This document shows, one piece after another, positions 6,207 to 14,508 of a DNA stretch of 24,706 bases. This DNA is from a virus, in IMG/VR virus record IMGVR_UViG_3300044522_000429, positions 1 through 24,706 of that record; one strand, written 5' to 3'. A model generated the notes under the pieces. It was not told the DNA's origin and did no database searches. It saw nothing but the letters and a program-made list of their open reading frames with translations. The position numbers and the translations under genes are program-made. Each line of letters starts with the position of its first letter. The first letter of the stretch is position 1.

Positions 6207-6890
6207 ATGAGTACAATTTCAAACAGAAAACAAGCGTTTTCACAACCACAAACAAATCCAGCGACAAAATTTATCGACTGGAAATCAAATGACAAATGTT
6301 TTAGCTTTTACGATCGTGAAACTTCGGCAAATGTTCAAATCCCGTTACCTTTTAAATTTTTAGTCTTAGAGGAACTCCACACCGTAAAAGGTTGGAACGA
6401 TGCAAGCTCAAGTCAAATCAATTCTAACGAGGTTAAATTTATCTCACGCGACGAAATGACTGTAAAACCTTTTAAAGGTAACGAAATTGCAAAGGGTTTA
6501 TATAAAGACATTAAAGAGAAAATTAAGGCTGCCGGAGGGCATTATGTTAAGAGCGTTTATTGTATGCTCGAAGACGGCTCAATTGCTAATTTACAACTTA
6601 AGGGCGCAGCGTGCCAATCTTACGGAGATTTTACAGCAAAGACTCGATCACGTTTAACAGACGAGTGGGTTGTCGTAGCCAAAGCAATCGACGGCAAAAA
6701 AGGAGCTGTCAAATATACAACGCCAGGCTTTGCATTTGATAAGTCATTAAGCGAGTCGGAGGCTGACTTAGCCGACGAGGCGTTTAATACCTTAGAGGCG
6801 TATTTAAAAACGTATTTAAGTAAAATAGAAAATGAAAGTATTGGAGTTGTTATTGAGGAGACTATCGAGGACGACGATTTGGACTTTTAA
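6207..6890 (+). CDS. Predicted single-stranded DNA-binding protein
   Basis: 227 residues. The body (about 20-195) alternates strands and helices in a way compatible with an OB-fold-containing phage SSB. It holds FIDWKSNDKCFSFYD, LPFKFLVLEELHTVKGW and EWVVVAKAID. The C-terminus is a strongly acidic tail, EETIEDDDLDF, ending in Phe as in bacterial SSB and T7 gp2.5-type proteins, where the tail contacts replication partners. It is the last gene before a strong terminator and the candidate origin, upstream of the primase/helicase. The fold is not proved by motif; tail plus context make the call. Confidence 0.6.
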   Translation: MSTISNRKQAFSQPQTNPATKFIDWKSNDKCFSFYDRETSANVQIPLPFKFLVLEELHTVKGWNDASSSQINSNEVKFISRDEMTVKPFKGNEIAKGLYKDIKEKIKAAGGHYVKSVYCMLEDGSIANLQLKGAACQSYGDFTAKTRSRLTDEWVVVAKAIDGKKGAVKYTTPGFAFDKSLSESEADLADEAFNTLEAYLKTYLSKIENESIGVVIEETIEDDDLDF

Positions 6891-6918: not shown

Positions 6919-6943
6919 GGAGGCTTTGTGCCTCCTTTTTTTT
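6919..6943 (+). terminator. Strong rho-independent terminator
   Basis: A perfect GC-rich 6-bp stem, GGAGGC (6919-6924) and GCCTCC (6930-6935), has a five-base loop and is followed by eight T residues (6936-6943). It ends the early operon 29 bases after the ssDNA-binding gene. Confidence 0.92.
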
Positions 6944-6947
6944 GCTC

Positions 6948-7150
6948 AAAACAGCAAAACAGCAAAACACAAAAAAACGCCTCTCTTATATATATATTTT
7001 ATAAAAGGTAAAAAAAAAATATTTTTCGTCAAAAAATAAAAAAATGCTGTTTTGCTGTTTTTTATAGTCAAAATGTAATGTAAAGCCACGCTATCAGTAC
7101 AACAGCAAAAAAATGAAATGCTGTCTTTTAAGTGTATTATGCTGTTTTTA
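6948..7150. other. Candidate replication origin with AACAGCA-type repeats
   Basis: This AT-rich stretch has no convincing gene. AAAACAGC is repeated in tandem (6948-6955, 6956-6963), and the 17 bases 6948-6964 recur as a perfect inverted copy at 7045-7061. Three further copies of the ACAGC/GCTGT core lie at 7102-7106 (+), 7120-7124 (inverted) and 7141-7145 (inverted), making seven in about 200 bases. Between the arms is an easily melted run of A/T (TATATATATATTTTATAAAA, then A-tracts). Position between the SSB-like gene and the primase/helicase fits an iteron-type origin. The role is inferred, not shown. Confidence 0.5.
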
Positions 7151-7167: not shown

Positions 7168-7203
7168 AGTTAGTTTATTAAAAATAAATTTATATATTTG
7201 TAC
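7168..7203 (+). promoter_or_regulatory. Promoter P2 for primase/helicase
   Basis: TATATTTG (7193-7200) followed by TAC repeats the P1 -7 box. GTTAG (7169-7173) lies 19 bases upstream in the -33 region. The presumed start is near 7205. Together with the terminator at 6919 it makes the replication genes a separate transcription unit. Confidence 0.72.
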
Positions 7204-7292
7204 CACTTCGACTATTATAAAAAACATTATTAAAAAGGGATAATGAAACCAGTGTCGAAGTTGGTGGATTTATCCCTTTTAACATTTAAAAT
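7203..7292 (+). promoter_or_regulatory. Structured 5' leader, potential H-type pseudoknot
   Basis: Helix A pairs ACTTCGAC (7205-7212) with GTCGAAGT (7254-7261), extended by CC (7203-7204) with GG (7263-7264) past one bulged T. Helix B pairs 11 bases, AAAAGGGATAA (7233-7243) with TTATCCCTTTT (7270-7280). The arm order A, B, A', B' is interleaved, so both helices together make a pseudoknot with connecting loops of about 20, 10 and 8 bases. Helix A would include the 5' end of the RNA. Helix B followed by its T-run could alternatively act as an attenuator. The ATG follows 12 bases after helix B. No known riboswitch class is recognised. Confidence 0.6.
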
Positions 7293-9638
7293 ATGATAAC
7301 AATATTTTCAAAAATTACAGACGTTGAAAATCCATTCTTTGATGAGATTGACAATGTATTAAAATCTTTTAAAGACGGAAGTAATAAAGATAAAATCGAG
7401 TCTTTAAGATTAATCTCAGACAAAGAGAAACGAAACCAAGCGAAAGGAAAATTAAAGTCCGTTTGTTTTAGTGGGGAATTTTCTCGACGAGCTGCAAAAA
7501 ATTGCGTTACTCATTCAGGATTTGCGTGTTTGGATTTTGACGACGTGGACGATGCGGTTTGTTTACGCGATAGCTTACAGGATAACGAGTATATTTATAG
7601 CGCTTTTATAAGTCCGTCAGGAAACGGAGTTAAGGCAATCGTAAAAATACCAGCCGAAATTCAAAATCATAAAAAATATTATGAGGCTCTTTGCGAAACT
7701 TTTGACACAAACCTAGATACAAAGACTAAAGATATATCTCGAGTTTGTTATGAGAGTTTTGATCCTGACTTGTTTATTAACCATAATTCAAAAGTTTGGA
7801 TTTTAAAAAACGAGTTTACAGAGATAACTCGCAAAAATAATTATCCAACTCACTTTCAAATTAACGACACCTCAAAAAAGGTTGACGTAATTATAAAATG
7901 GTTTAATAAAAAATTTACTTTAAACGCTGGAGAGCGAAATAATAATCTTTTTAAATTAGCCTCCGGATTAAACAGAGCCGGACTTCCAATGGACGAGGCG
8001 ATTGGAATGTTTAAAAATTTCTATTCAGCCGGATTAACTGACTCGGAACTTGAGACAATTGTAAAAAGCGCTTATAAAAATACGAGCGAGTTTGACAGCC
8101 TTACTTTGGTTGACGATACTAAAATTAGAGAGGCTCAGGAAATACTAAAAAAGGGGGTACAAAAAGCCAAAAAACAATTTCGCAAAGACGGATTAACGGA
8201 TACAGATATTGAGGAGTTAATCGATTTCGATTTTGAGGACGATTTTTTGGTTTTTTGGGACACCGACAAAAATGGAAAACTATCTTTAAACGATTACAAA
8301 TTCAAATTGTTTTTAGAAAATCGAGGGTTTTATAAAGTCCAACTAAATGACAAAGAGTTTACTTTTGTCAAAGTTTACAATAATATTATAAACGAAGTTA
8401 ACGAGGTGCAAATCAAAGATTTTGTACTTAATCACGTTATTGAGGTTGACATGCAAGTCTATAATTTCTTTGCTAAGTCAACGACAAAATTTACAGAGGG
8501 ATATTTAAACCAACTCGACACAAAGGAATTAACAATGATCCGAGACTCAGCCGAAACGTCTTATTTATTTTTTAAAAATAAGGTCGTTGAGGTAAAAATT
8601 GACTCGGTTAATTTTATAGATTATATTAATATTGCAGGCTTTGTGTGGCAAAAAAACATAATAGACTATAATTTTAAAATCACTCAAGACAAGTCCGATT
8701 TTGAAACTTTTATTTTAAATATCTCCAACCAGGATCAGAGCAGAAAAATAGCGCTTGAAACCTCAATCGGTTACTTATTAAATACCTATAAAAAACAAGA
8801 CGAGGGATTGGCTATTGTTTACTACGATGAGACTTTAAATGACAATCCAAGCGGACGTACTGGTAAAACTTTAATATCTAAGGCGCTAGGACATTTGCGT
8901 AAAATGGTAACTTTAAACGGAAAGGAATTTAACAATAAAGGTCAATTCCCTTATCAAACTATTAACCTCGACGATAATATTATATGTTTTGACGATATGG
9001 AGCGCTCGTTTAAATTTGAAACGTTATTTAGTATAATAACAGGAAACTTGACTTTAAACAAAAAGAACTTGCAACCGATTGAAATACCATTTTATAAAAG
9101 TCCAAAAATTTTATTTACTTCAAATTATATTTTATCCGGAGTTGGAGACTCTCACGATGCGCGTAAAATTGAAATTGAATTATTTAGACACTACTCAAAA
9201 AAATATAAACCGGTTAACGAGTTTGGTAAAATGTTTTTTGACGGCTGGAATGAGGAAGAGTGGAACGCATTTTTTAATTATATGATTTCAAACATTCAAA
9301 AGTATTTTAAAAATGGTTTGATTTACTCAGAATTAAAAACCGGTAAAACCAAAAAATTAATCGCAAACACTTGCGAGGATTTTTATGATTTTTGTGAGAA
9401 TGAGTATTTATGGAAAAACGATTATTTTTATACAACTAAGGAGATAATGCAATCGTATGCCGACGGATCTAGAGAAATGCCTCGTAATATGAATGTCAGT
9501 TGGTTTGGTCGTTGGTTAGGTACTTACTTTGAATTTAAACAATGGAAACGAGAAGACACCACAAACGGAGGTATTCGTAAATTTTCGATTAACGGATTTA
9601 TTACAGAGGTTGAAGACGAAAACGACTTAGCTTTTTAA
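7293..9638 (+). CDS. Bifunctional primase / superfamily 3 helicase
   Basis: 781 residues. The N-terminal part (about 1-170) resembles the VirE_N/BT4734-like primase-type domain: CLDFDDVDD (79-87), SPSGNGVKAIV (107-117), and DISRVCYESFDPDLF (147-161). Residues 180-265 form a helical PriCT-like linker (GERNNNLFKLASGLNRAG). The C-terminal part is a D5-type SF3 helicase with Walker A GRTGKT (521-526), Walker B IICFDDME (563-570) and motif C ILFTSN (606-611). A winged-helix-like end follows. The last residues, EVEDENDLAF, form an acidic Phe-terminated tail like that of the SSB-like protein. It would prime and unwind phage DNA. It is followed closely by the SF2 helicase. Confidence 0.88.
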   Translation: MITIFSKITDVENPFFDEIDNVLKSFKDGSNKDKIESLRLISDKEKRNQAKGKLKSVCFSGEFSRRAAKNCVTHSGFACLDFDDVDDAVCLRDSLQDNEYIYSAFISPSGNGVKAIVKIPAEIQNHKKYYEALCETFDTNLDTKTKDISRVCYESFDPDLFINHNSKVWILKNEFTEITRKNNYPTHFQINDTSKKVDVIIKWFNKKFTLNAGERNNNLFKLASGLNRAGLPMDEAIGMFKNFYSAGLTDSELETIVKSAYKNTSEFDSLTLVDDTKIREAQEILKKGVQKAKKQFRKDGLTDTDIEELIDFDFEDDFLVFWDTDKNGKLSLNDYKFKLFLENRGFYKVQLNDKEFTFVKVYNNIINEVNEVQIKDFVLNHVIEVDMQVYNFFAKSTTKFTEGYLNQLDTKELTMIRDSAETSYLFFKNKVVEVKIDSVNFIDYINIAGFVWQKNIIDYNFKITQDKSDFETFILNISNQDQSRKIALETSIGYLLNTYKKQDEGLAIVYYDETLNDNPSGRTGKTLISKALGHLRKMVTLNGKEFNNKGQFPYQTINLDDNIICFDDMERSFKFETLFSIITGNLTLNKKNLQPIEIPFYKSPKILFTSNYILSGVGDSHDARKIEIELFRHYSKKYKPVNEFGKMFFDGWNEEEWNAFFNYMISNIQKYFKNGLIYSELKTGKTKKLIANTCEDFYDFCENEYLWKNDYFYTTKEIMQSYADGSREMPRNMNVSWFGRWLGTYFEFKQWKREDTTNGGIRKFSINGFITEVEDENDLAF

Positions 9639-10867: not shown

Positions 10868-10920
10868 GTTAATATTATGTTAAAATATAATATATTAAAA
10901 TAAGTTTTGTATATTTGTAC
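10868..10920 (+). promoter_or_regulatory. Promoter P3 with AT-rich repeat
   Basis: TATATTTG (10910-10917) plus TAC matches P1 and P2. GTTAATATTATGTTAA (10868-10883), immediately after the helicase stop, is identical to 4378-4393 near P1. Its distance to the -7 box is 42 bases here and 52 at P1, a difference of one DNA turn. No clear -33 motif is seen at normal spacing, so an activator may be needed. The presumed start is near 10922. Confidence 0.65.
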
Positions 10921-10921
10921 A

Positions 10922-11008
10922 ACCGCCAAAGTAAAGTATTTAATAATTCCCTTTTCTTTTGCGCTTGGCGGTAGCAATCGAGGAGGGTTTATTTTTTATA
11001 TTAATATT
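10922..11008 (+). promoter_or_regulatory. Structured 5' leader, second potential pseudoknot
   Basis: Helix A is a perfect 8-bp pairing, ACCGCCAA (10922-10929) with TTGGCGGT (10965-10972). Helix B pairs CCCTTTT (10949-10955) with AGGAGGG (10981-10987), seven pairs including two G-U. The arms interleave exactly as in the P2 leader, and helix A again starts at the presumed RNA 5' end. The 3' end of helix B lies 21 bases before the ATG at 11009. AGGAGG within the B arm also looks like a Shine-Dalgarno core, although too far from the start to act normally. Helix A is convincing; B is weaker. Confidence 0.5.
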
Positions 11009-11374
11009 ATGAAAATAAGTGAATTACCATTAGAAGTTAAATTATTAGCTTTAGATTATCAAAAAAATGAAGAGTTTTATGATGTTTATGATAGAAAAAC
11101 AGATAAATTAACTGATGCTTTTGATTGGACAGCAACAAAAGAAGGAGATATTTATTGGAAAAAATGGGCTATTAAAAAAAGTGAAACCAAACCCGAACAG
11201 TATCAAATCGGTATCGATACATTTGAGCGAGCTGAGGCGAATTTAAGTAAGGAGGAAATTCTAGCGATTTGCAAATTTAATATTGACAAATACAACTGGA
11301 GAAAAAAGGATCAAGACAAAGAGGATTTTAAAAAAATTATTGATTATGCCAATTGGGCAATTAAAAATTTATAA
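11009..11374 (+). CDS. Phage protein with DUF3310-like C-terminal region
   Basis: 121 residues from ATG 11009; an upstream TTG at 10907 overlaps the promoter and is rejected. The N-terminal part (1-58) has ELPLEVKLLALDYQ and DAFDWTATKEGDIYW, a pattern seen in small phage proteins of unknown role. The C-terminal part (about 62-121), with EQYQIGIDTFERAE, ICKFNIDKYNWRKKD and KIIDYANWAIKNL, follows the DUF3310 layout (a Tyr-Gln start, N-I-x-K-Y in the middle, then D-x-x-K-x-x-x-Y). It seems to be a fusion of two common phage modules. DUF3310 is linked to nucleotide metabolism only loosely. Confidence 0.6.
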   Translation: MKISELPLEVKLLALDYQKNEEFYDVYDRKTDKLTDAFDWTATKEGDIYWKKWAIKKSETKPEQYQIGIDTFERAEANLSKEEILAICKFNIDKYNWRKKDQDKEDFKKIIDYANWAIKNL

Positions 11375-13812: not shown

Positions 13813-13849
13813 TTTAGCGTTATATCAATATAATTAGTATATTTGTAAA
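13813..13849 (+). promoter_or_regulatory. Promoter P4, nearly leaderless
   Basis: TATATTTG (13838-13845) lies four bases before the ATG at 13850, so transcription would begin at or next to the start codon. TTTAGCGTTAT (13813-13823), identical to 6135-6145, covers the -33 region. P4 would drive the sigma-like gene and the terminase genes. Confidence 0.68.
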
Positions 13850-14083
13850 ATGATAAAACCTTATACGATATCGACTCAAATGTGGTTGGAACAGGAAGAC
13901 GATAATCTTGGTTTCAATGGCTCTTATGTAGATTTTAGAGTCAACGTCGATAGTATTGACGGTTTTTGGGTTGAGGCTGACGACGAAATTGTTTTAATAA
14001 TTAGAGGGACGGCTTACTATATTGAGAACGAGACTCACGTTTTAAATTTTTTAAACGAGTTTTTTAATCCAATGCGATTGTGA
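13850..14083 (+). CDS. Small hypothetical protein at the start of the P4 operon
   Basis: 77 residues, acidic, with IDGFWVEADDEIVLIIRG and a C-terminal helix (THVLNFLNEFFNP). No domain is recognised. The ATG sits where P4 transcripts should start, and its end overlaps the sigma-like gene by four bases, so both would be made together. Confidence 0.65.
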   Translation: MIKPYTISTQMWLEQEDDNLGFNGSYVDFRVNVDSIDGFWVEADDEIVLIIRGTAYYIENETHVLNFLNEFFNPMRL

Positions 14084-14508
14084 TAATACACGAACTCGCT
14101 AAAAAAGACGCTCAATGGCGGAAAATGGCTTTACAAATTTGTAAAAACAAAGACTTAGCGGACGAGTTGGTGCAAAATATGTATATAAAACTATCGCAAA
14201 GAACTATTCCAGTCTCAGACGGATATATTTTCGTAACTTTGAGATCATTATTTTATGACTCTCTTAAAAATAACGATATTTTAATCGACGATTTTAGTAA
14301 ATTTGAAATCGAAGAGGAGGAATATTGCGAGGGAATTGATTATAAAGAGCTTTCAAAAGACCTAACTTGGTACGAAAGGACTTTATTTGAACTCTCAACG
14401 CTTCACGGACAGCGTGAACTCTCAAGACAAACCGGAATTCATATTCAAACTATTCACCGAGTTAATAAAATGGTAAAAATTAAATTAAATGGCAAAAAGA
14501 AAAACTAA
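14080..14508 (+). CDS. Sigma-70-like transcription factor
   Basis: 142 residues with a GTG start at 14080 overlapping the previous stop. Residues 8-65 resemble sigma region 2 (WRKMALQICKNKDLADELVQ, then MYIKLSQ and FVTLRSLFYDSL). Residues 97-135 look like the region 4 helix-turn-helix (WYERTLFELSTL, then ELSRQTGIHIQTIHRVNK). An acidic linker joins them. This is the layout of a short ECF-type sigma factor. Located just before the terminase genes, it may direct host RNA polymerase to late promoters. The sigma call is supported by pattern; the late role is inference. Confidence 0.7.
   Translation: MIIHELAKKDAQWRKMALQICKNKDLADELVQNMYIKLSQRTIPVSDGYIFVTLRSLFYDSLKNNDILIDDFSKFEIEEEEYCEGIDYKELSKDLTWYERTLFELSTLHGQRELSRQTGIHIQTIHRVNKMVKIKLNGKKKN

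Follow-up and report, generated by a model that had tools for sequence, protein, structure and literature searches.

The leader between the primase gene of a virus and its promoter is a pseudoknot in which the 5' tail of the RNA is paired to a hairpin's apical loop, one helix richer than the initial annotation of this DNA had proposed, and it represents what is apparently a large, undescribed family of knotted leader RNAs at early transcription units of Bacteroidetes phages, where they probably regulate the expression of the genes behind them. The DNA analysed, here called the window, is the whole of virus record IMGVR_UViG_3300044522_000429 (24,706 bases), and the genes on it, together with the nearest relatives of their proteins, mark it as a Bacteroidetes phage contig. 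As judged from the sequence, the window almost certainly encodes a phage-borne cis leader RNA of ~75-90 nt that has this fold and begins at, or within a few nucleotides of, the +1. It is further proposed, with confidence only slightly short of even, that 5'-terminal kissing-hairpin leaders constitute an unnamed superfamily that provides a general, portable expression control of Bacteroidetes phages, for replication and homing endonuclease genes.

The primase transcription unit and the fold of its leader

The features of the window are collected in Table 1. In mapped transcription start sites of Flavobacterium psychrophilum, TAnnTTTG occupies -12 to -5 (PMC9723704), which places the +1 of the primase unit at ~7205, the first base of P1; for all leaders the +1 was likewise derived from the promoter consensus. 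Just 5' of the primase promoter, at 6945-7150, blocks of CAGCAAAA and TTTTGCTG are repeated in direct and inverted orientation and could be origin iterons. The protein encoded at 6207-6890, without a Pfam family and falling in PHROG 6706, where no function is assigned, has an acidic DDDLDF C-terminus like the tails of single-stranded-DNA-binding proteins.

The initial annotation had described two interleaved helices, 7205-7212 with 7254-7261 and 7233-7243 with 7270-7280. Both are found exactly there, as P1 (8 bp) and P2 (11 bp), with Watson-Crick pairs throughout, and the view that such complementarity is unlikely by chance is borne out by 200 dinucleotide shuffles of the leader, none of which contained an equally good interleaved pair. 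An extra helix, P3, joining ACCA to TGGT, was brought out by the family data, and with P3 counted the leader scores 55.3 in the P1+P2+P3 scan described below. The nested minimum-free-energy fold of 7205-7292 (-18.3 kcal/mol, z = -2.6) consists of exactly one structure, hairpin II, which from its 5' side to the apex comprises the 11 bp of P2, a TGAA/GGAT internal loop, P3 with a closing G-U pair, and the apical loop UGUCGAAG. The RNA begins with eight nucleotides, ACUUCGAC, that can pair with the P1 3' arm, that is, to this apical loop and one closing base. The leader belongs to the class of H-type pseudoknot leaders, in that its two interleaved helices have covariation support, and has P3 in addition. 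The structured, pseudoknotted 5' leader that had been proposed is thus real, but a plain H-type description leaves P3 out, and relatives present the 5' strand in a hairpin loop, so that the general architecture is a two-hairpin kissing complex. Two further P1 pairs that had been suggested, CC 7203-7204 with GG 7263-7264, are dropped: they are upstream of the +1, most relatives lack them, and they compete with P3, for which the support is better. Of the two P1 arms, both of which had been supposed to lie at the RNA 5' end, only the 5' arm does so. The linker motif ACATTA recurs, as judged by eye, in several leader types.

Table 1. Coordinates of the primase unit, of the elements of its leader and of the second leader in the window
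Feature	Position	Strand	Basis
Intrinsic terminator ending the transcription unit of the upstream gene; sets the primase unit apart	6919..6943	+	terminator scan
Bacteroidetes sigma-A promoter: TTAG 7170-7173, 19-nt spacer, TATATTTG 7193-7200	7170..7200	+	sequence
P1 5' arm ACTTCGAC, inferred RNA 5' end	7205..7212	+	complement of 7254-7261; type A swap test
A-rich linker including ACATTA	7213..7232	+	type A alignment
P2 5' arm AAAAGGGATAA	7233..7243	+	swap test, MFE fold
TGAA, conserved and unpaired, 5' side of internal loop (core TGAAAC); TAATGAAAC itself belonged to the type A search pattern	7244..7247	+	alignment
P3 5' arm ACCA (nested fold adds G7252-U7261)	7248..7251	+	P3 swap test, MFE fold
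P1 3' arm GTCGAAGT, within hairpin II apical loop	7254..7261	+	swap test, scan, MFE fold
P3 3' arm TGGT	7262..7265	+	P3 swap test, MFE fold
GGAT, conserved and unpaired, 3' side of internal loop (core GTGGAT); TGGATTTAT itself belonged to the type A search pattern	7266..7269	+	alignment
P2 3' arm TTATCCCTTTT	7270..7280	+	swap test, MFE fold
AU-rich 12-nt spacer between P2 and start codon	7281..7292	+	sequence
Primase gene, BT4734-like_N and PriCT_1 domains, first gene after the leader	7293..9638	+	domain/protein matches
TATATTTG promoter of second element, +1 ~10922	10910..10917	+	sequence
Second element, type E	10922..10987	+	score 47.6; relatives
DUF3310 gene, after second element	11009..11374	+	protein family match

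Relatives of the leader and a second element in the window

Close relatives of the primase are encoded at 36 viral loci, and 38 loci were retrieved with larger flanks. Many of their leaders, directly 3' of a TAnnTTTG motif, have unrelated sequences and share the interleaved topology; by sequence the leaders group into types A, C, D, E, F and G. Among 313 promoter-like sites, 26 score at least 46 (P1+P2+P3) where 0.2 would be expected from shuffles, and two of these passing sites are supplied by the window, the type A site at 7193 and the type E site at 10910. At a threshold of 40 the same scan gives 38 sites against 7.5 expected, in keeping with the abundance of weak inverted repeats in AT-rich DNA to which an explanation by chance complementarity, or by a feature of the DNA itself, would appeal.

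The type E element of the window is built of P1 (10922-10929/10965-10972), P2 (10949-10956/10980-10987) and P3 (10959-10962/10974-10977), and has the kissing architecture of the primase leader with an unrelated sequence. From the end of hairpin II to the start codon there are 21 nt in this element and 12 nt in the primase leader. Elsewhere in the window, another TATATTTG promoter at 13838-13850 has a predicted +1 that falls on the ATG of the next gene, the mRNA of which is probably leaderless, and the small protein encoded at 14080-14508 (PHROG 31712, no Pfam match) resembles an ECF-type sigma factor by eye.

A DNA-similarity search with the primase leader against 50,697 phage records returned no related leader; the helices diverge too far for a match at the DNA level, so pattern and model searches were needed. 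The leader types were found through patterns seeded from this phage group, and the census is accordingly incomplete. Cellulophaga phage phi46:1 and the spring-metagenome phage MW202828 contained no element above threshold, and a scan with GAGTAG...GACGAAATTC was set aside after an nhmmer follow-up showed mostly chance matches.

Covariation of the helices

Type A of the Bacteroidetes-phage 5' kissing leaders, a class delimited here, is defined by a TAnnTTTG promoter followed by P1 close to the 5' end, the core TGAAAC...GTGGAT, a P2/P3 hairpin and a start codon close after. The search pattern for it was the core TAATGAAAC...TGGATTTAT, and the 38 rows tested comprise 36 true leaders and two chance matches in coding sequence (L234 and L311), which were left out of the leader count. 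On comparison with the 35 other leaders, window 7193-7293 is a member of this type. The core is common to all 36, while P1, P2 and P3 differ from leader to leader and are in each case self-complementary; P1, for instance, occurs as ACTTCGAC, ACTGCAAC, CTCTCTGA, GGCTCGAC, CATCTCAC, CCTCTTAC and GAGTCTCA, each with a perfect partner. Because the MAFFT alignments of type A (A3 and A4) misregister P1 in some rows, columns were left uncounted and a swap test was used instead, in which each pairing is re-optimised. Over all 38 rows the mean for P1 is 21.4 with its own partner and 13.7 (SD 0.55) with swapped partners, and that for P2 is 22.4 against 13.3 (SD 0.8); for P3, over 36 rows, 4.67 contiguous pairs are formed against 3.37 (SD 0.16). 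About 14 of the 36 type A leaders also have a hairpin P0 of 5-6 bp that holds the P1 5' arm in its loop, and a convincing P0 was not found in the shorter leaders, including that of the window, where the 5' end pairs alone.

In type D the loop of a 5' hairpin kisses a second hairpin. The core pattern of this type was matched by 76 stretches in viral contigs, giving 57 distinct leaders, nearly all right after TAnnTTTG. An alignment of 58 leaders with P0, the kissing helix P1 and P2 has 98.6% of its cells paired, and double compensatory changes occur in 11 of the 18 pairs. The covariation score reaches 0.327; shuffles give 0.085 and slid partners 0.007-0.028. Invariance of GATAAAGAC, of GACCTTTTGA and of the CC with which P2 opens is by construction, as the search pattern prescribed them, and the informative changes are those in the columns that it left free. 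The initial annotation had named an absence of covariation as grounds for abandoning the fold; covariation is instead abundant in both types. These results already exclude chance for the family, and taken with the excess over shuffles and the fixed strand and place after promoters they leave chance complementarity or a DNA-level feature a negligible probability.

A start codon lies 9-17 nt past P2 in 58 of 65 type D leaders; in L165, L170, L175, L176, L188 and L207 it is 69-116 nt off or none was found. It might be supposed that the complementary loops act in trans, by dimerisation or as a stand-alone small RNA ended at the U-run, and the full complementarity of the two loops and the few type D copies with no start codon directly following would agree with this. 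Nearly all copies, however, stand right before a start codon, and a linker of ~20 nt easily spans the cis distances, so that trans action seems very improbable.

Two side observations concern type D. Just past the element, L165, L170, L175, L176 and L207 have a TATAACG...TCGG stretch with no nearby start codon, which by eye looks like a recombination site of the integron attC kind or similar. Eight contigs (L127, L165, L170, L176, L184, L203, L213 and L219) bear two type D-like elements with differing P1 kissing sequences, for example GTGGTCG and GTCGTCG by eye, as if to avoid cross-pairing, in a comparison that does not control for shared ancestry.

Occurrence and downstream genes

The leaders are found right after a TAnnTTTG promoter, with the start codon usually 9-22 nt past the leader. 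Behind them lie genes for primase, NUMOD4/HNH homing endonucleases, DUF6291, DUF3310 and a sigma-like protein, and further, judged from the protein start alone, for GIY-YIG-like and helicase proteins. The downstream genes are thus varied, and phages with ~80% identical primases carry leaders of different types, for which reasons the leader is best read as a portable module and not as a primase-specific operator. The primase-specific role first envisaged for it is not supported, since the same architecture stands before many unrelated genes, with two copies in the window alone.

Among isolated phages, a type D leader is present in 34 Flavobacterium phage records, and the 20 among the matches listed carry the annotation endonuclease. 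In mumin6-1 the leader is followed by a gene for a NUMOD4 protein and a second element is also present (the two lie at ~11.7 and ~12.7 kb of the record), and elemoE has one element, upstream of its replication/primase block. Type D looks phage-borne, since its model, under stricter filters, matched 1 of 395 Bacteroidota genomes, the one MAG that also has the related primase. In viral contigs (L145-L219 and L221:11001-11104) type D stands mostly before homing endonuclease genes that are free-standing (of the NUMOD4/HNH kind and, by eye, in some cases GIY-YIG-like), and the gene for a small MNT(L/I)SVQGFKIDINHF protein also occurs behind it. Promoter and leader together look like a portable expression cassette in this type. 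In L118, a sigma-like gene has a pseudoknotted leader of its own.

Possible mechanisms

The sequence favours either a terminator-like gate or a 5'-end or translation element, and does not by itself separate the two. The reading preferred here, and held with rather less than even confidence, is that hairpin II is an attenuator, an expression gate for its transcription unit. The RNA 5' end, a single strand in the window and the loop of P0 in relatives, forms P1 with the hairpin II apical loop. On this reading hairpin II has the anatomy of an intrinsic terminator, with stem and U-run right before the start codon, and would gate the transcription unit. P1 is complete before the 3' arm of P2 is transcribed, and so could tune hairpin II during transcription, setting whether, or how fast, it closes. 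Candidate triggers for opening or closing the gate are RNAP speed, a phage or host protein and the arrival of a ribosome. The helices are freely exchangeable provided that both arms change, and the conserved information resides in the loops (TGAAAC/GTGGAT in the window). Terminator anatomy and an attenuation gate are suggested because a U-run follows or overlaps the 3' end of P2; T5 occurs at the P2 end in 29 of 30 elements and in 17% of ORF starts. The unrelated nature of the downstream genes (primase, NUMOD4/HNH, DUF6291, DUF3310 and sigma-like) argues for a general gate over a gene-specific operator. Against attenuation, the U-run of type A is short or interrupted; the window has the short form of the family U-run, just UUUU at 7277-7280 within the P2 3' arm, where it is paired with AAAA. 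Hairpin II is not flagged by a simple terminator scan, the loops of which are limited to 3-8 nt and would exclude it, and no competing antiterminator pairing was seen in the leader, which leaves the switch unexplained.

Because the fold starts near the +1 and hairpin II adjoins the start codon, 5'-end protection and ribosome gating fit equally well. As a post-transcriptional element, P1 (or P0 with P1) would lock the 5' end against 5'-dependent decay and hairpin II would gate ribosomes near the start codon, possibly bound by a phage protein as at T4 gene 32; we regard this as a credible minority reading. In all types the fold begins at +1 to ~+4, as reckoned from the promoter consensus, the AUG follows at a close distance (9-17 nt for the majority of type D leaders), and a leader of ~90 nt is exceptional beside the flavobacterial 5' UTR median of 24 nt (PMC9723704), with T4 gene 32 as a precedent (PMC3014915). 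Such an element does not, however, by itself account for the U-run that accompanies hairpin II, and the range of leader types, and of the genes behind them, is too wide for a single gene product regulating its own synthesis.

In the superfamily proposed here, the 5' end of the RNA itself is paired to the apex of a hairpin that looks like a terminator, and this control geometry was not found described for known attenuators. The mRNAs of Bacteroidetes are without Shine-Dalgarno signals. As the elements are small, their helices exchangeable and their pairing backed by covariation, and as they are present in cultured Flavobacterium phages, the mechanism is directly testable, and the elements would aid the annotation of Bacteroidetes phage genomes, in which they would help to place promoters, start sites and the genes of mobile homing endonucleases.

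Relation to known systems

A search of the open-access literature found no description of such leaders; the known phage leaders that may work in a similar way are those of T4 gene 32 and HK022 put. Rfam 15, applied at the gathering threshold and at relaxed E-values to the window and nine relatives, gave no match; the best (CRISPR-DR61, Hatchet, RT-14 and S15-Flavobacteria) had E > 1 and were far under the gathering score. HDV-like, hammerhead and pistol ribozymes, considered for the GACGAAA-like loop letters of type C, were set aside on topology by eye.

Kissing-loop riboswitches such as guanidine-IV have two hairpins linked by pairing between their loops, close to a terminator. In the leaders the internal loop that is conserved (TGAAAC/GTGGAT for type A) might be an aptamer in which ligand binding closes the pseudoknot, and conserved unpaired letters amid variable helices are typical of aptamers, in a core partly fixed here by the search pattern. 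Unlike those riboswitches, the present leaders lack an Rfam match, differ in core and display several unrelated cores on one topology, even within one phage, and the downstream genes have no common metabolic function; a riboswitch is distinctly improbable. Attenuators based on intrinsic terminators resemble the leaders in the order of stem, U-run and start codon (in the window only the UUUU inside P2), but here the apical loop is paired to the RNA 5' end and no alternative antiterminator stem was seen.

The put RNA of phage HK022 offers a likeness in both anatomy and place, being a two-hairpin RNA of ~70 nt right after early phage promoters (PMC9378689), and the present leaders share this form, with a strand as the 5' element of the window's copy. 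On that model the folded leader would bind the elongating RNA polymerase and override downstream terminators or pauses, and several units of one phage do bear an element. Many elements, however, stand before single small genes and not before long operons with internal terminators, and the types have no helix or loop sequence in common, as a site adapted to a single protein surface would; a put-like antiterminator is unlikely. The put RNA acts on the RNA polymerase of E. coli, and the available portion of that report describes no kissing pairing for it (PMC9378689), whereas here the hairpins pair through their loops and the start codon follows at once.

The leader of gene 32 in T4, T2 and RB69 contains a pseudoknot through which gp32 regulates its own translation, followed by an A+U-rich unstructured start region, and in a 2010 review was considered possibly the sole viral pseudoknot in translational autoregulation (PMC3014915). 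The primase leader resembles it in that a phage replication gene has a pseudoknot ahead of its coding sequence, with an A+U-rich unstructured start region next to it (PMC3014915). By position it is not a gene 32 operator, as the leader precedes a primase gene and not one for a single-stranded-DNA-binding protein, and its relatives front many others. In T4 there is one gene, a known regulator and a pseudoknot that precedes the start codon by ~67 nt; here there are many genes, a fold that extends from the +1 to 9-22 nt before the start codon, and an added P3, with P0 in relatives. The set of leaders is also far larger than the gene 32 case, with dozens of distinct sequences in several architectures, lying between host-type promoter and start codon.
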